Assembly: GCA_016873275.1 (NCBI GenBank)
Contig: VGXO01000007.1
Coordinates: 1-64,000 of the forward strand
Direction: 5' to 3'
From: Phycisphaerae bacterium
GTDB lineage: Bacteria > Planctomycetota > Phycisphaerae > Phycisphaerales > SM1A02
Length of the DNA stretch: 64,000 bases
Positions 12,062-38,304 of this stretch are shown in pieces. Position numbers and translations under genes: made by a program. The notes beneath the pieces were generated by a model, which worked only from the letters and a program-made list of their open reading frames with translations, had not been told where the DNA came from and ran no database searches. Each line of letters begins with the position of its first letter. The first letter of the stretch is position 1.

Positions 12062-12136
12062 GTCGCGCTGGCCCGCCGTCGGCGTCTTCCAGGGCATGGC
12101 TCCTCCTCGGAGCCAGCAAGCCTCGAAGTCCCCGAC

Positions 12137-12186
12137 GTGTTACCCATGTCTCCGAACACCCGTTACCTATGTCTCCGGTCTGTACA
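12137..12186. repeat. Two near-identical ~24-bp direct repeats, IS-end-like
   Basis: gttacccatgtctccgaac and gttacctatgtctccggtc are 24 bases apart and differ at a few positions. The pair is less GC-rich than its surroundings and resembles transposon end sequences. No transposase is next to it, so it may be a solo end left by an excised or decayed element. Confidence 0.45.
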
Positions 12187-12208
12187 GCGGAGCGACGCGG
12201 GGGAGTCG
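12186..12208 (+). repeat. 23-bp direct repeat, copy 1
   Basis: The 23-bp segment beginning agcggagcgacgcgggggag occurs here and again at 12789-12811, so the two copies bracket the 83-bp repeat cluster. Confidence 0.7.
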
Positions 12209-12277
12209 TGAGGCGCTCGGCAGGTTCATGACTTCGCGGCGATCGCAGGCAACCCGTTCATCGGATCTCCCCTCCGT

Positions 12278-12298
12278 CTCGCTGGCTTCGCCAGCGAG
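12278..12298. repeat. Perfect 9-bp stem hairpin
   Basis: CTCGCTGGC-TTC-GCCAGCGAG is a perfect inverted repeat with a 3-nt loop, embedded in a longer palindromic neighbourhood. There is no T-run, so it is not clearly a terminator. Confidence 0.7.
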
Positions 12299-12530
12299 CC
12301 ACCTCCCCGACCTCGCTGGGCTCGGTCGAGGAGGAGTTTCGGAGCTACGGCGTGGGTCGAGGCAGCGGAGTTCCTGAGTGCGTCGCGGCATTCGCGACCT
12401 CGGGAACTCCTCCCCGCGGCTGCAGCCGTGGGGAGGTGTCGCCGAGCGCAGCGAGGCGACGGAGGGGACCAACTCCGACGGATGACTCCCGCCACGCGGA
12501 CTTCGCACGCGGAAGTGCACCGCGTACGTC

Positions 12531-12779
12531 GGGACCGCACCCGGGAGGTTCGTGGCGGACCCGATGCGGGCAGGATGCCCGCGGTCCACATCGGGCTCGA
12601 ACGAGTCCTCCACGGGACCGCACCCGGGAGGTTGGTGGCGGATCCGATGCGGGCAGGATGCCCGCGGTCCACATCGGGCTCGAACGAGTCCTCCACGGGA
12701 CCGCACCCGGGAGGTTCGTGGCGGATCCGATGCGGGCAGGATGCCCGCGGATCACATCGGGCTCGAACGAGTCCTCCAC
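12531..12779. repeat. Three tandem copies of an 83-bp repeat
   Basis: Copies lie at 12531-12613, 12614-12696 and 12697-12779, almost identical. Each begins gggaccgcacccgggaggtt and contains the hairpin GCGGGCA-GGA-TGCCCGC. The unit length is not a multiple of three, so it does not encode a protein repeat. Confidence 0.95.
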
Positions 12780-12788
12780 TCTCCCGCG

Positions 12789-12811
12789 AGCGGAGCGACG
12801 CGGGGGAGTCG
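12789..12811 (+). repeat. 23-bp direct repeat, copy 2
   Basis: Second copy of the segment at 12186-12208, in the same orientation, just downstream of the 83-bp repeat cluster. Confidence 0.7.
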
Positions 12812-12835
12812 GACTTCGAGCGGAGCTCGAAGTCC
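12811..12835. terminator. Perfect 11-bp stem hairpin downstream of vsr
   Basis: GGACTTCGAGC-GGA-GCTCGAAGTCC is a perfect 11-bp stem with a 3-nt loop, about 100 bp beyond the stop of the minus-strand vsr gene. There is no U-tract. It could slow transcription arriving from vsr or be part of the dispersed repeat family. Confidence 0.4.
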
Positions 12836-12938
12836 GGTGGGGGTGGTCCGAAGCACGACGAACGGAGGCGTGGCGACGACTCGATGAGCGACGTCTCGAT
12901 CGGCGGGCCGCGACGTTCGTCGCGAGTCGAACCCCCCC

Positions 12939-30958: not shown

Positions 30959-33832
30959 ATGACCGAGCCTGCCCCGAACGACCTGCCCCACCGCTACAGC
31001 GGCGCCTACGCGAACCGCCTCGAGGAGGCGTGGCAGGCGCGGCTCGAGGCGGAGGGCGCGTTCCGCCAGCCGAATCCAGGCGAGCCCGGCTTCGACCCGT
31101 CGCGACCGAAGTTCTACTGCCTCGACATGTTCCCGTATCCCTCCGGTGCGGGCCTGCACGTCGGGCATCCCGAGGGCTACACCGCGACCGACATCATCTG
31201 CCGCTACAAGCGGATGAAGGGCTTCAACGTCCTGCACCCGATGGGTTGGGACGCGTTCGGCCTGCCCGCCGAGCAGTACGCGATCGCGACGGGCGTCCAC
31301 CCCGAGGTCACGACGACGAAGGCGATCGACACCTTCCGCCGGCAGCTGAAGCGCTTCGGCTTCTGCTACGACTGGTCGCGGGAGCTCGCGACGATCGATC
31401 CGGGGTACTACCGCTGGACGCAGTGGATCTGGCTGCAGGCGTACGGCTCGTGGTTCGATCCGGCGCTGCGGAAGGCGCGACCGATCGCGGAGCTCGAGGC
31501 GACGCTCGCCCGCGAGGACCGCGCGATCGAGACCGCCGCCGGACCGCGCCGCTGGAGCGCCTGCTCGCGGCTCGAGCGGCAGGCGCACCTCGACCGGCAT
31601 CGCCTCGCCTACCTCGGCGAGCAGACCGTCAACTGGTGCCCGAAGCTCGGCACGGTGCTTGCCAACGAGGAGGTGATCGACGGGCGGAGCGAGCGCGGCG
31701 GTCACCCGGTGCTGCGGATGCCGCTCAAGCAGTGGATGTTCCGCATCACCGCCTACGCCGACCGGCTGCTCGAGGACCTCGCCCTCGTCGACTGGCCGGA
31801 GTCCACCAAGACCCTGCAGGCGGAGTGGATCGGTCGGAGCGAGGGCGCGGAGGTCCGCTTCGCGCTCGACGACGGCTCCGGCGAGTCGCTCGAGGTCTTC
31901 ACGACGCGCCCCGACACGATCTTCGGCGCGACCTACATGGTGGTCGCCCCGGAGCACCCGCTCGTCGCGCGGGCGGTCGCGCGGTCGGGCGATCCCCGCC
32001 TCGCCGCGTACGTCGAGGCGGCGCGGAACCGCGCCGACGTCGACCGCCAGCAGTCGAAGGAGAAGACCGGCTGCCCGACGGGACTTCACGCGGTGAATCC
32101 CGCGACCGGCGGCCGCATTCCCATCTGGACCGCCGACTACGTGCTCATGGGCTATGGCACCGGGGCGATCATGGCGGTGCCCGCGCACGACGAGCGCGAC
32201 TTCGAGTTCGCGCGGGCGTTCGATCTCCCGATCGTGCAGGTCGTCGAGGTGCCGGGCACGCCCTTCACCGGCGAGCAGGCGAACTCCGGCGAGGGCACCG
32301 CGGTGCGGAGCGCGAGCGCCGCGACCGGACTCTCGATCGACGGGCTCGCGACGGCGCCGGCGAAGGCGGCGGTGATCGCGTGGCTCGAGGCGAGGCGGCT
32401 CGGGGCGCGACGAACGAACTACCGCCTCCGCGACTGGCTCTTCTCGCGGCAGCGCTACTGGGGCGAGCCCTTCCCGATCGTCTACGACGCGGAAGGGCTG
32501 CATCACCCCGTGTCGGCGTCGGCGCTGCCGGTGGCGCTGCCGCCGCTCGCCGACTACTCGCCGATCGAGAGCGACTCGCCGCAGCCGCCGCTCGCGAAGG
32601 CCGCCGACTGGGCAAGGACCACCGCCGGCGCCGCGGGAGTGGACCCGGCGGTCCTTCCTCCCGACGCGCCGGTCGTGCGCGAGACCAACACCATGCCCGG
32701 CTGGGCAGGGAGCTGCTGGTACTACCTCCGCTACTGCTCGCCGCGGGCGATCGATCGCTTCGTCGATGCCGGCGCCGAGCGCTACTGGATGCTCTCCCGC
32801 CGGCGCTCCGCGGGCGCGGGACCGGCTCCGGACCGCTTCGATCCCGCGACCTGCCACGCCGGAGGCGTCGACCTCTACGTCGGCGGCGCGGAGCACGCGG
32901 TGCTCCACCTGCTCTACGCGCGATTCTGGCACAAGATGCTCTTCGACCTCGGGCTCGTCTCGACCCCGGAGCCGATGGGTCGGCTCTTCCATCAGGGGAT
33001 GATCACGAGCTTCGCCTACCAGCGGCGCGACAAGAGCCTCGTCGCGGTGGACCTCGTCGAGGAGCGGTCGGACGGAACCTTCGTCGAGAAGGCGACCGGC
33101 GAGGCGGTGACGCAGATCGCCGCGAAGATGTCGAAGTCGCTCCGCAACGTCGTCAATCCAGACGACGTGATCGCCGAGCATGGAGCCGACACCTTCCGGC
33201 TCTACGAGATGTACATGGGTCCGCTCGAGGCGTCGAAGCCCTGGAACACCCGCGACATCGTGGGCGTCTTCCGCTTCCTCCAGCGGACGTGGCGGCTCGC
33301 GATCGACGAGCGGACCGGCGAGCCGCTCGGCGCGGCGACCGCGGATCCCGCGATCGAGAAGCTGCTCCACCGCACCATCGCGAAGGTCGGGGAGGACATC
33401 GAGCGCCTCGCGTTCAACACCGCGATCGCGGCGCTGATCGAGCTCGTCAACGCGGCGACCCGCCCGACCGGCATGACCGATCCCACGCGGGGCGGCATGA
33501 CCCGCGACCAGCTCGAGCGCCTCGCGCGGATCCTCTGGCCGTTCGCGCCCCACGTCGCCGACGAGATCGCGGCGCGCCTCGGCGCGACCGGCGGGCTTCA
33601 TCGCGCGGCGTGGCCGTCCTTCGATCCCGCGATGCTCGTCGAGGACGAGGTCGAGATCCCCGTGCAAGTGCAGGGGAAGCTGCGGGCACGCATCAAGGTG
33701 CCCGCGAAGGCGAGCGCTGCAGAGATCGAGGCGATCGCGCTCGGCGACCCGCAGGTCGTCCCTCATCTCGGCGGCAGACCGCCCAAGAAGGTGATCGTCG
33801 TGCCGGGGCGGATGGTCAACGTGGTGACCTGA
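30959..33832 (+). CDS. leuS: Leucyl-tRNA synthetase
   Basis: 957 residues. Class I synthetase charging tRNA-Leu. The nucleotide-binding PYPSGAGLHVGHPEGY is at 59-74 (the HIGH box reads HVGH). The editing domain includes FTTRPDTIFGATYMVVAPEHP and GYGTGAIMAVPAHDERD. ETNTMPGWAGSCWYYLRYC lies before the second active-site half, and KMSKSLRNVV has KMSKS at 723-727. It is about 100 residues longer than E. coli LeuS, partly from an insertion after the first Rossmann half (LARKARPIAELEATLAREDRAI-like region near 180-205) and a Pro-rich stretch around 540-560. ATG 30959 fits the family start. The gene is followed directly by a long repeat array. Confidence 0.96.
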   Translation: MTEPAPNDLPHRYSGAYANRLEEAWQARLEAEGAFRQPNPGEPGFDPSRPKFYCLDMFPYPSGAGLHVGHPEGYTATDIICRYKRMKGFNVLHPMGWDAFGLPAEQYAIATGVHPEVTTTKAIDTFRRQLKRFGFCYDWSRELATIDPGYYRWTQWIWLQAYGSWFDPALRKARPIAELEATLAREDRAIETAAGPRRWSACSRLERQAHLDRHRLAYLGEQTVNWCPKLGTVLANEEVIDGRSERGGHPVLRMPLKQWMFRITAYADRLLEDLALVDWPESTKTLQAEWIGRSEGAEVRFALDDGSGESLEVFTTRPDTIFGATYMVVAPEHPLVARAVARSGDPRLAAYVEAARNRADVDRQQSKEKTGCPTGLHAVNPATGGRIPIWTADYVLMGYGTGAIMAVPAHDERDFEFARAFDLPIVQVVEVPGTPFTGEQANSGEGTAVRSASAATGLSIDGLATAPAKAAVIAWLEARRLGARRTNYRLRDWLFSRQRYWGEPFPIVYDAEGLHHPVSASALPVALPPLADYSPIESDSPQPPLAKAADWARTTAGAAGVDPAVLPPDAPVVRETNTMPGWAGSCWYYLRYCSPRAIDRFVDAGAERYWMLSRRRSAGAGPAPDRFDPATCHAGGVDLYVGGAEHAVLHLLYARFWHKMLFDLGLVSTPEPMGRLFHQGMITSFAYQRRDKSLVAVDLVEERSDGTFVEKATGEAVTQIAAKMSKSLRNVVNPDDVIAEHGADTFRLYEMYMGPLEASKPWNTRDIVGVFRFLQRTWRLAIDERTGEPLGAATADPAIEKLLHRTIAKVGEDIERLAFNTAIAALIELVNAATRPTGMTDPTRGGMTRDQLERLARILWPFAPHVADEIAARLGATGGLHRAAWPSFDPAMLVEDEVEIPVQVQGKLRARIKVPAKASAAEIEAIALGDPQVVPHLGGRPPKKVIVVPGRMVNVVT

Positions 33833-33842
33833 GGGCAGGGCG

Positions 33843-33862
33843 GCGCCTGCGGCCGCAGGCGC
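33843..33862. repeat. Perfect 20-bp palindrome, copy 1 of 4
   Basis: GCGCCTGCGGCCGCAGGCGC is fully self-complementary. Identical copies lie at 34053-34072, 34458-34477 and 34668-34687, two per module of the repeat array. Confidence 0.95.
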
Positions 33863-34052
33863 TGGGTTCGGGTGCTGGTGCTTCGGGAGTCTCGCGAGGC
33901 TTCGGACACGGCGCGGGCGGCCGCCTGGCCGACCGTCGAGGTGCGCACACGGGCGTGGCCTGTGGACCCAGTGGACCTTGTGGACCCAGTGGAGGTGGAC
34001 GGCGTGTGGACGGTGGACGTTGGTGCGCTCGTCTCGCGGGAGTCCGGACACG

Positions 34053-34072
34053 GCGCCTGCGGCCGCAGGCGC
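34053..34072. repeat. Perfect 20-bp palindrome, copy 2 of 4
   Basis: Same palindrome as at 33843. It ends the first module. Confidence 0.95.
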
Positions 34073-34457
34073 GGGGTTCGGGTGCCGTGCTTCGGAAGGC
34101 GTGCGTGACTCCGGAAGCCCGTGCGTCGGAAGGCATCCGCCCGTCACTGCAGCGCTTCGCCCACCCACCTGTCCACCGGGTCCACTGGGTCCACCGGGTC
34201 CACGTCCACCGATTCAAAGTCCCACGACGACGGAAGGCATCCGCCGCGCGAGCCTGTGCTACGGAAGGCTTGCGTGACTCCGGAAGCCCGTTCCTCGCAA
34301 GGCTCCCGCCCGTCACCGCAGCGCTTCGCCCACCCAGTCGTCCACCGGGTCCACTGGGTCCACCGGGTCCACGTCCACCGACCCGAAGTCCCATGACGAC
34401 GGAAGGCGTCCGCCGCGCGAGCCTGTGCGACGGAAGGCGTGGGTGGCTTCGGACGCG

Positions 34458-34477
34458 GCGCCTGCGGCCGCAGGCGC
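34458..34477. repeat. Perfect 20-bp palindrome, copy 3 of 4
   Basis: Same palindrome as at 33843. It starts the second module, 615 bp from copy 1. Confidence 0.95.
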
Positions 34478-34667
34478 TGGGTTCGGGTGCTGGTGCTTCG
34501 GGAGTCTCGAGAGGCTTCGGATACGGCGCGGGTGGCCGCCTGGCCGACCGTCGAGGTGCGCACACGGGCGTGGCCTGTGGACCCAGTGGACCTTGTGGAC
34601 CCAGTGGAGGTGGACGGCGTGTGGACGGTGGACGTTGGTGCGCACGTCTCACGAGAGTCCGGACACG

Positions 34668-34687
34668 GCGCCTGCGGCCGCAGGCGC
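34668..34687. repeat. Perfect 20-bp palindrome, copy 4 of 4
   Basis: Same palindrome as at 33843. It ends the second module, 615 bp from copy 2. Confidence 0.95.
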
Positions 34688-35454
34688 GGGGTTTAGTTGC
34701 CGTGCTACGGCAGGCGTGCGTGACTCCGGAAGCCCGTTCCTCGCAAGGCTCCCGCCCGTCGCCGCAGCGCTTCGCCCACCCACCTGTCCACCGGGTCCAC
34801 TGGGTCCACCGGGTCCACGTCCACCGATCCGAAGTCCCATGACGACGGAAGGCGTCCGCCGCGCGAGCCTGTGCTACGGCAGGCGTGCGTGACTCCGGAA
34901 GCCCGTGCTTCGGAAGGCATCCATCATCCATGGTGCAGCGCTTCGCCCACCCAGTTGTCTACTGGGTCCACTGGGTCCACCGGGTCCACGTCCACCGATT
35001 CAAAGTCCCATGACGACGGAAGGCGGCCGCCCCGCGAGCCTGTGCTACGGCAGGCGTCCGCGACTCCGCTTGCCCGTGCTTCGTCAGGCATCCGCCCGTC
35101 ACTGCAGCGCTTCGCCCACCCAGTTGTCCACCGGGTCCACTGGGTCCACCGGGTCCACGTCCACCGATTCAAAGTCCCATGACGACGGAAGGCGGCCGCC
35201 GCGCGAGCCTGTGCGACGGAAGGCTTGCGTGACTCCGGAAGCTCGTTCCTCGCAAGGCTCCCGCCCGTCACTGCAGCGCTTCGCCCACCCACCTGTCCAC
35301 CGGGTCCACTGGGTCCACCGGGTCCTCGTCCACCGACCCGAAGTCCCCCGACGACGGAAGGCGTCCGCCAGCCCCCGCCCCGATAACGCCCCTCCCGCCC
35401 GGGCGATCTCCCATCTCCTCGTGGACTCGCGGTGGTCTCCCCGATGCCTCGGAC

Positions 35455-35528: not shown

Positions 35529-37367
35529 ATGGTCGAGCGTCGCGCGGTGCGTTGGCGGGTGTTCGTCGGCGCCACCGCGGCGTGGACGCTCGCCCTCTCG
35601 GCGTCGGCGCAGGTCCGCGTGGTGACCTGGAACATCGCGCGGCTCCAGGGCGACCCCGATGCCATCGAGGAGGTGCTCGCGACCCTCGCCGAGGACGACC
35701 GCCCCGGCTTCGCCGAGGCGCCCTCGATCGTGGTCTTCCAGGAGGTCACCTCCTCCTCGCTCGCCGGGATCTCCGCGCTCGTCGCCGCCGGCGCGGGTGG
35801 CGTGCCCTACCAGCTCGCGACCTACACGAGCTCGCCCTCGGAGGACTCCTCCGGCGGCGCCATCGCGCTCTTCTACCGCTCCGACCGCCTGCAGGAGGTC
35901 GCCGCGCAGCACCGCGACATCGCGACGGGCGCCGGACGCAACAGCGACCGCTGGAGCCTGCGCCTCGTCGGCTATCCCGAGCCGATCGGCTCGCTCTGGA
36001 TCTACGGCAGCCACCTCAAGGCAAGCAACGATGCCGAGAGCCGGGCGGCGCGCCTCGCCGGCGCGAACGCGCTCCGCGCCGACATGGCGACGCTCCCCGC
36101 GGGCTCGCGGATCATGCTCGTCGGCGACCTCAACCTCTACGTCAACACCGAGTCCGCCTACGTCGCGCTCCTCGCGGGCGGCGGGCTGCTCGATCCGCTC
36201 GGCAGCGGCTCGTGGTCCGGCGGGTCGAACGCCCTCAAGCACTCGCAGTCGCCCCGCGACGTCTCGGTCGGCGGGCTCGTCGGCGGCGCGATGGACGACC
36301 GCTTCGACTTCCAGCTCGTCTCGCCCGCGCTCTCCGATGGCGCCGGGCTCGACCTCATCGGCGGCACCTATCGATCGGTCGGCAACGACGGCGCGCACTA
36401 CGACCAGGCGATCAACGCGGGGAACAACCTCTACTTCCCCGGGCAGGTCGCCCGTTCGAACGCGCTCGCGGATGCGCTCTTCGATTCGAGCGACCACCTG
36501 CCGGTCGCGACCGACCTCCGGCTCCCCGGGGTCCTCGTGGCGGCGATGAGCGACGACCTCGGGCGGGCGTTCCGCGGCGCGACGGTGCCGATCGCGGTGG
36601 TCCTCTCGAACGGCGCTCCGGGCGCGAACCTCCAGCGGAGCGCCCCGATCGCGGTGACCGTCGAGGGCGTCGAGGGCGCGGTCGGCGCGACCTCCGCGAC
36701 GGCGCCGCTCCTGCCGGCGACCGTGACCGCGACGGTCCTCCTCGACTGCTCGACCGCCGGGACGCTCGACGTCGTGGTCGAGGCGCGGGCGAGCGGCGAG
36801 GTCGCGAACGCGGTGTTCCCGCTGCAGGCACAGGCGGAGGTGCTCGAGCCCGCGCGACCCTCGCTCGAGGCGGGCGCGGTCGTCGAGGAGATCGAGGCGT
36901 CGATCGAGGTCGAGCCGGGCACGCCGCAGGTCGTCGAGTTCCTGATCTACAACCTGCCGGCGCCGCCGCCGCAGGGGGTGCTCGAGGTGGACGAGGTCCT
37001 CGTGGCGCCGGGACCGATCTCCCTCGTCGAGGCGCCCGCGACGGTGGGCGTGCTTCCCGGCGTCCTCCGCGTCTCGGTCGATCCGGCGCTCGTGCCGACG
37101 AAGGGATGGCAGGGCTCGATCGAGATCGAGGTCTCTGACGAGGACCTTCCCGGCGCCCGCGCGGCGTCGCTCGTGATCCAGCTCGCGGTGTCGGTCGCCG
37201 ACGCAGGCGACCCCGCGGACCTGAACCACGACGGGATCGTGAACGGGGCGGACCTCGCGATCCTCCTCGGTGCCTGGGGAGGCTCGGGTCCCGCGGACCT
37301 GAACGACGACGGGATCGTGAACGGGGCGGACCTCGCGATCCTCCTCGGCGCCTGGAGCAGCGGATGA
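35529..37367 (+). CDS. Secreted endonuclease/exonuclease/phosphatase-like protein with dockerin
   Basis: 612 residues. A signal peptide (1-27, ending SASAQ) precedes an EEP (DNase I-like) domain at about 28-335. It contains VRVVTWNIARLQ, VVFQEVTSS (metal-binding Glu), YGSHLKAS (His), LVGDLNLYVN (GDxN) and the terminal SSDHLPV (SDH). That is a full catalytic set for a metal-dependent phosphodiesterase acting outside the cell. Two Ig-like or beta-rich segments follow (340-555). The C-terminus has two nearly identical dockerin repeats, DLNHDGIVNGADLAILL and DLNDDGIVNGADLAILL. An AGGAGCT Shine-Dalgarno precedes the ATG. Confidence 0.88.
   Translation: MVERRAVRWRVFVGATAAWTLALSASAQVRVVTWNIARLQGDPDAIEEVLATLAEDDRPGFAEAPSIVVFQEVTSSSLAGISALVAAGAGGVPYQLATYTSSPSEDSSGGAIALFYRSDRLQEVAAQHRDIATGAGRNSDRWSLRLVGYPEPIGSLWIYGSHLKASNDAESRAARLAGANALRADMATLPAGSRIMLVGDLNLYVNTESAYVALLAGGGLLDPLGSGSWSGGSNALKHSQSPRDVSVGGLVGGAMDDRFDFQLVSPALSDGAGLDLIGGTYRSVGNDGAHYDQAINAGNNLYFPGQVARSNALADALFDSSDHLPVATDLRLPGVLVAAMSDDLGRAFRGATVPIAVVLSNGAPGANLQRSAPIAVTVEGVEGAVGATSATAPLLPATVTATVLLDCSTAGTLDVVVEARASGEVANAVFPLQAQAEVLEPARPSLEAGAVVEEIEASIEVEPGTPQVVEFLIYNLPAPPPQGVLEVDEVLVAPGPISLVEAPATVGVLPGVLRVSVDPALVPTKGWQGSIEIEVSDEDLPGARAASLVIQLAVSVADAGDPADLNHDGIVNGADLAILLGAWGGSGPADLNDDGIVNGADLAILLGAWSSG
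37215..37360 (+). repeat. Two 78-bp near-identical dockerin-coding repeats
   Basis: Copies begin at 37215 and 37293 (gcggacctgaac...) and differ at only a few bases over about 63 nt. They encode the two calcium-binding loops of the dockerin tail. The low divergence points to recent duplication or gene conversion. Confidence 0.85.
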
Positions 37368-37431: not shown

Positions 37432-38304
37432 ATGAACGCCCTGCACCTCACCCTGCCTGCCCTGCGCCGCATCCCGATCCTCGCGATCGCCGGCGCGATC
37501 CTCGCGTGGACCGCGCCCGCCTCGGCGGACGTCGTCGAGATGACCACGGTCAAGGACAACACCCTGATCGAGGATCCCTCGCTTCCCGTCAGCGCCGGCG
37601 CCTCGACGAGCTTCTACTCCGGTCGGGTCGGCTCGAACGGCGGCACGACGCTCCGGCGCGGGCTCCTGCAGTTCGACGTCGCCGCGCAGGTGCCCGCGGG
37701 AAGCACGATCACCGCGGTCACCCTGCAGGTCCGCTGCAGCAAGGTCCCCACGGGTAGCCAGGCGCAGCTGATCAAGCTCCACCGCATGCTCGCGAGCTGG
37801 GGCGAGGGCTCGTCGGTCTCCTTCGGCGGCGGCGGCGCGCCCGCGACGCCGGGCAGCGCGACTTGGGTCAGCCGCTTCCACCCGGACCTTCCCTGGACGA
37901 CGCCGGGCGGGCAGTTCGCCGCAGCGCCGAGCGGTTCGACCTCGGTCGGCGCGGTCGGCTTCTACACCTTCGCGTCGAGCGCCGGCATGGTCGCCGACGT
38001 GCAGGCGTGGCTTGACGATCCCGCCTCGAACCATGGCTGGGCGGTGATCGGCAACGAGGTCGTGCCGCAGAACGTGCGGCGCTTCGAGACCCGCGAGTCC
38101 ACCTCGGCGTGGCGCCCGCAGCTGGTCGTCACCTTCGTGCCGCCCTCCACGAACCCCTACGACCTCAACGGCGACGGCATCGTCAACGGCGCCGACTTGT
38201 CGATCCTGCTCGCCCAGTGGGGCGGACCCGGCACCGCCGACTTCAACGGCGACGGCGTCGTGAACGGCGCGGACCTTGCCCAGCTCCTCGGGGCGTGGAC
38301 CTGA
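37432..38304 (+). CDS. Secreted DNRLRE-like domain protein with dockerin
   Basis: 290 residues. A signal peptide (about 1-32, ending APASA) is followed by a beta-sandwich domain with TTVKDNTLIEDPSLPVSAG, RRGLLQFDVAAQVPAGSTI, NHGWAVIGNE and RRFETRES...WRPQLVVTF. That order is typical of DNRLRE/CBM-like surface proteins. Two dockerin repeats close it: DLNGDGIVNGADLSILL and DFNGDGVVNGADLAQLL. A GGGAGAAG Shine-Dalgarno precedes ATG 37432, 64 bp after the nuclease gene, so the two exported proteins may share a transcript. Confidence 0.82.
   Translation: MNALHLTLPALRRIPILAIAGAILAWTAPASADVVEMTTVKDNTLIEDPSLPVSAGASTSFYSGRVGSNGGTTLRRGLLQFDVAAQVPAGSTITAVTLQVRCSKVPTGSQAQLIKLHRMLASWGEGSSVSFGGGGAPATPGSATWVSRFHPDLPWTTPGGQFAAAPSGSTSVGAVGFYTFASSAGMVADVQAWLDDPASNHGWAVIGNEVVPQNVRRFETRESTSAWRPQLVVTFVPPSTNPYDLNGDGIVNGADLSILLAQWGGPGTADFNGDGVVNGADLAQLLGAWT

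Follow-up and report, generated by a model that had tools for sequence, protein, structure and literature searches.

Organization of the repeat array downstream of leuS

We analysed a stretch of 64,000 nucleotides (the window) on contig C7 of a 3.23-Mb genome (G000) assembled in 136 contigs. Between leuS and a gene of the Exo_endo_phos family, the gap holds an array of repeats that starts 10 bp past the leuS stop codon, occupies positions 33843-35369 and is composed of two modules (M) and six units (U) in the order M-U-U-M-U-U-U-U. The array and its two neighbouring genes comprise the following features.

30959..33832, + strand: leuS, the left neighbour
33843..34072, + strand: module M1, 230 bp from palindrome to palindrome
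33843..33862, no strand: perfect 20-bp palindrome GCGCCTGCGGCCGCAGGCGC, left terminus of the array
33962..33993, - strand: 9-bp core of M1, in inverse orientation
34053..34072, no strand: perfect 20-bp palindrome GCGCCTGCGGCCGCAGGCGC
34087..34255, + strand: unit U1
34256..34424, + strand: unit U2
34458..34687, + strand: module M2, 230 bp
34458..34477, no strand: perfect 20-bp palindrome GCGCCTGCGGCCGCAGGCGC
34577..34608, - strand: 9-bp core of M2, in inverse orientation
34668..34687, no strand: perfect 20-bp palindrome GCGCCTGCGGCCGCAGGCGC
34702..34870, + strand: unit U3
34871..35041, + strand: unit U4, 171 bp, with the alternative segment CATCATCCATGGTG
35042..35210, + strand: unit U5, 99.4% identical to a unit on contig C52
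35211..35369, + strand: unit U6, cut at unit position 159
35295..35325, + strand: example of the core, with the 9-bp repeats GTCCACCGG/GTCCACTGG; others at 34171, 34340, 34786, 34957 and 35126
35341..35369, + strand: right terminus AAGTCCC..GACGACGGAAGGCNNCCGCC
35529..37367, + strand: Exo_endo_phos family (nuclease) gene with C-terminal dockerin-like repeats, the right neighbour

The initial annotation had described an array in this gap with six units of 169-171 bp, two modules 615 bp apart and four identical perfect 20-bp palindromes bounding the modules, and our analysis bears out each of these elements. All six units could be placed, with a unit length of 169 bp and, once, of 171 bp (U4). 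M2 follows M1 at an offset of exactly 615 bp and is 95% identical to it over 300 bp. The palindrome was found four times in the window against 0.11 occurrences expected (up to 3 mismatches allowed); M is bounded by an inverted pair of intergenic palindromes that lie 210 bp apart and are perfect at the leuS locus. The position given for the array was also correct, except that its right end is 35369 and not 35365. The complementarity noted between units and modules is real as well: the 9-bp core, which matches the window 27 times where 1.1 matches would be expected, is carried on the + strand of all six U and as its reverse complement in both M, and one flank of M1 aligns together with the core to the reverse complement of U. 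We concur with the initial annotation in setting aside CRISPR and integron attC structures; a CRISPR array was rejected as whole 169-bp units repeat with nothing unique between them. Dockerin-like C-terminal repeats of the DLNHDGIVNGADLAILLGAWG type, located at 37212-37355 and 38119-38301, have at least 80 matches in each of the three genomes from the genus.

Copies in the genome and in related bacteria

The genome was read as stretches around matches together with a 400-kb sample. U gave 36 matches by blastn and 40 by profile search (copies or fragments), the palindrome was present at 21 sites with no more than 2 mismatches, and 72 matches were obtained for the triple core. The copies lie at 16 intergenic sites on ten contigs; since about six of these sites touch contig ends, and some may be the two ends of one array, they represent 13 to 16 separate loci, and all copy counts are lower bounds given the 136-contig assembly and the several arrays that stop at contig ends. 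One copy consists of a single unit (C1:140946-141111), and many others are multi-unit. Copies that diverge by 5-15% occur independently with different unique flanks on ten contigs, which rules out an artefact in the assembly of a single contig, a concern raised in the initial annotation. Several contigs end inside copies, so the repeat probably explains part of the fragmentation of the assembly. Genes were called with a codon model, so that their starts are approximate; those next to the arrays share no common function and include NADH dehydrogenase subunit 3, penicillin amidase, FeoB and a DNA polymerase of the impB/mucB/samB family. Beside another array copy, on contig C52, lies a homologue of pentameric ligand-gated ion channels with Neur_chan_LBD and membrane domains (L033:12347-13456, - strand).

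Neither blastn nor the profile matched U in the two congeners. Among 58 other relatives, blastn returned two marginal matches of 31-41 bp; the profile search gave four weak matches of 20-22 bits in other genera (G004, G027, G038 and G063); the four profile matches and one of the two blastn matches lie in long open frames and were taken as chance. A unit-specific pattern was compared with 84,980 species genomes (from which the genome studied here was possibly left out) and matched none of them exactly, and the unit matched nothing in plasmid and phage collections, which argues against an origin from either. The bare 9-bp motif is present in 47 viral contigs, and these matches could be coincidences, arising for example from Gly-Pro-Pro coding. 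Rows of three 9-bp core repeats, with any spacer, were present in 18 of the 399 other genomes from the order, with at most 4 in each, compared with 84 here. The closest named relatives of LeuS are from Planctomycetota metagenome-assembled genomes, Phycisphaerae among them, several of which we take from their isolate names to originate from lakes; the LeuS-based scan of contigs, which thereby put the organism within Planctomycetota and close to Phycisphaerae, yielded no further copy of the repeat. G001 also has leuS next to the nuclease gene, the two being separated by 875 unrelated bases. At the array on contig C4, colinearity with G001 stops at the array and the two genes on its right stay together in G002, which, as one case, is at most suggestive. 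The proposal that the array is a species-specific satellite is largely right, but what the genome contains is a composite repeat with fixed ends, dispersed over 13-16 loci, and not one satellite.

Fixed ends and likely exchange between loci

We then compared the termini of the copies. In 13/13 readable loci the right end falls at unit positions 157-184, a stretch of 28 bp; for breakpoints placed at random along the unit, such clustering has a probability of about 6e-9. In about 10 of 12 cases, the left end is either the whole palindrome or its right half, with GGGTTCGGG coming next. In terms of architecture, a variable number of units lies between these fixed left and right ends. Aligned with inverse U over its full length, M scores 90 against a shuffle maximum of 52. 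Outside the core, one flank scores 43 (shuffle mean 24, maximum 47) and the other flank shows nothing, so that the similarity is due in part to the shared core; on these alignments, M and U are likely to share a common origin.

For 23 of 28 units the nearest relative lies at a different locus, and units are 90.3% identical within a locus versus 89.3% between loci. When pairs of two-state sites were considered, 188 of 276 failed the four-gamete test, failures that may also stem from recurrent mutation. Together, the nearest relatives at other loci and the four-gamete failures suggest that shuffling or conversion has taken place among copies at different loci. A composite block of 1.37 kb is shared at 92% identity between the leuS array and contig C4, and exchange between loci or the dispersal of whole composite blocks fits the sequences best. 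The suggestion of a recombination hot spot in the initial annotation thus gains indirect support.

A probable composite mosaic repeat family

We consider it probable that the leuS array represents a single locus within a lineage-specific family of non-coding composite repeats, of the bacterial interspersed mosaic repeat kind. The family is dispersed, intergenic, bounded by fixed ends and absent from both congeners; its unit sequences are mosaic and carry neither a coding nor an RNA-structure signal. The basic element would be about 170-200 bp long, with the palindrome or its right half as the left end, GACGACGGAAGGCNNCCGCC as the right end and the conserved core of 9-bp repeats between the two. 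At each locus, U units would have been multiplied in tandem and joined with the related M in inverse orientation. Tandem growth may have proceeded by unequal exchange or replication slippage and homogenization by gene conversion between loci, and the first spread may have come about by copying or trans-mobilization of an element whose ends were defined; the analysis found no agent of spread. For the cell, the repeats would most likely matter as a substrate for recombination and copy-number change, and we do not infer a dedicated host function.

A possible alternative, which we hold to be clearly less probable, is a non-autonomous transposon resembling MITEs or REPINs, whose palindromes and fixed right end are recognized by a transposase acting in trans and whose tandem arrays arise by repeated insertion or rolling copying. 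The fixed ends, the palindromes that bound M and the occurrence of a single-unit copy next to many multi-unit ones would all suit such an element, and REP arrays of Pseudomonas likewise show regular spacing and near-identical distant copies (PMC3116915). However, a search of the genome for a Y1 transposase/RAYT (PF01797) found none while the controls matched, although a gene may have been missed in 136 contigs. Nor did the aligned ends reveal a clear target-site duplication or terminal inverted repeat, and no empty orthologous site could be aligned, as the intergenic DNA of the congeners is too diverged.

Comparison with known repeat systems

As observed here, the MIRU-type units of Mycobacterium form a family that is arranged in tandem at numerous intergenic loci within a single lineage. 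MIRUs are shorter than the present units (a distinction drawn by description and not by sequence) and, to our knowledge, are not combined with palindrome-bounded inverse modules. By architecture the array resembles BIMEs, BOX and STAR elements; it falls under the full definition of none of them, since no RAYT, no conserved stem-loop and no STAR consensus were found.

The BOX elements of Streptococcus pneumoniae are likewise composite and intergenic, with different end modules, a variable tandem middle module and many copies per genome, and are considered parasitic (PMC3049150). They are predicted to form a stem-loop and have end repeats similar to ISSpn2 (PMC3049150), whereas here neither a conserved fold nor a partner IS was found, and we claim no sequence relation. 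BIMEs, REPs and REPINs share with the present family the inverted pairs of intergenic palindromes, the regular arrays, the near-identical distant arrays and the mosaic composition (PMC3116915); in contrast to the short REP, the unit here measures 169-230 bp and the genome lacks a RAYT. STAR elements of Staphylococcus also consist of a short GC-rich direct repeat within a longer recurring sequence and are intergenic, variable in copy number, located at different loci in each species and of unknown function (PMC3532100). Their spacers are distinct and stable per locus (PMC3532100), unlike the present units, which are mixed between loci. The STAR core consensus T(G/A/T)TGTTG(G/T)GGCCC(C/A), searched as TGTTGNGGCCC, had no match in the array at up to 1 mismatch.

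The conserved core

Diversity along the unit is uneven. The value of pi is about 0.2 in columns 1-62, 0.075 in columns 63-86, 0.018 in the core (columns 87-126) and 0.09 to its right, so that diversity in the 40-bp core, built of the 9-bp repeats GTCCACNGG, is about one tenth of that in the left part of the unit. Pure neutral drift would not predict this conservation unless conversion were focused on the core. As the most conserved part, kept in U as well as M, the core could be a cluster of protein-binding sites, similar to iterons or DnaA boxes, that serves titration, nucleoid organization or regulation. Short runs of core-like 9-bp repeats without the rest of U are indeed found at C16:1154-1266, C18:3101-3124, C27:20053-20140 and C38:146-387 (L038-L041); these could be the seed of the larger unit, or remnants. 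We nevertheless regard a binding-site cluster as unlikely. The repeat is absent from the congeners, hence it cannot be required by any essential binding system, and the two boxes at the dnaA locus of the host read TTATCCACA whereas the unit contains TTGTCCACC, which is two bases off and lacks the terminal A. A cluster of DnaA boxes was rejected on this difference.

RNA folding, promoter and coding readings

The initial annotation had proposed the array as a source of structured RNA, in which transcripts could fold into long duplexes. Folding calculations gave z scores of -7.5 (+ strand) and -3.5 (- strand) for the whole array and of -6.1 and -4.2 for M, values that at first sight favour a structured non-coding RNA or a duplex between U and M RNA. 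This stability, however, follows from the palindromes and the inverted copies of core and module. U itself folds no better than dinucleotide shuffles (z of -0.4 and +0.6), and 0 of its 34 predicted pairs showed compensatory changes; RNA structure was rejected for U on these two results. Several palindrome variants at other sites carry single changes, which are mostly uncompensated. The repeat has a mixed orientation relative to its neighbouring genes, and a comparison of the window with Rfam found two tRNAs and no match in the array above the family gathering score. The proposal of a structured RNA is thus not upheld, and we give it little credence.

We assign a similarly low probability to a mobile regulatory cassette, in which the right end GACGACGGAAGGC would lie just upstream of a -10-like hexamer of the neighbouring genes and supply the upstream half of a promoter, with the core binding a dedicated protein. 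GGAA precedes a TANNCT hexamer by 21-23 nt at 3 of the 4 right ends near a start codon, compared with 1 among 41 other gene fronts with such a hexamer, in a test chosen after the ends had been seen; the other right ends abut the 3' ends of genes.

A decayed coding repeat, collagen-like (GPP) or similar, is highly implausible: GGTCCACCG reads Gly-Pro-Pro and a frame GPPGPLGPPGPRPP exists in the core, but the copies are intergenic, the inverted M copies share the core, no relative was found with the unit inside an intact gene, and, in line with the lack of a common reading frame noted in the initial annotation, the 169-bp unit length is not a multiple of three (with a length of 171 bp once) and variable columns spread evenly over the codon positions (23/21/23), on which grounds this reading was rejected.

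Intergenic repeats in the genome

To place the family in its setting, intergenic bases related to another intergenic piece were counted in samples of contigs without U arrays, with coding regions masked by a simple codon model, so that the figures are approximate. Apart from U and M, the genome contains 5191 such bases in a 464-kb sample, compared with 458 bases in 397 kb and 202 bases in 383 kb for the two congeners. Dispersed intergenic repeats in this genome thus exceed those in the samples of the two congeners by a factor of roughly ten or more. A long-read study of lake bacterioplankton reports that structural variants are disproportionately frequent in Planctomycetota and often lie at intergenic tandem repeats (PMC9426551). 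The present family is a clear-cut example of composite-repeat multiplication within a single genome: it is found in neither of two congeners and lacks the RAYT that explains REPINs. A single assembly suffices to read its fixed ends, its tandem growth and its mixing between loci, so that strain-resolved long-read sequencing of lake samples could reveal how such repeats start and spread.

A second palindrome-rich intergenic mosaic is present in the window at 12062-12938. It includes an 83-bp unit repeated three times (12530-12779, 97% identity) and palindromic blocks of the forms CTCTCCCG...GGGGGAGTC and GGGGAGGTG...GGAGGGG. This mosaic belongs to a family of ten pieces, with at least nine others besides 12062-12938 in the sampled genome and no detectable similarity to U or M; members in the same genome include L258:360-736, L258:18533-19780, L260:2815-3703, L261:14232-15690, L250:4944-5390 and L251:1-395.
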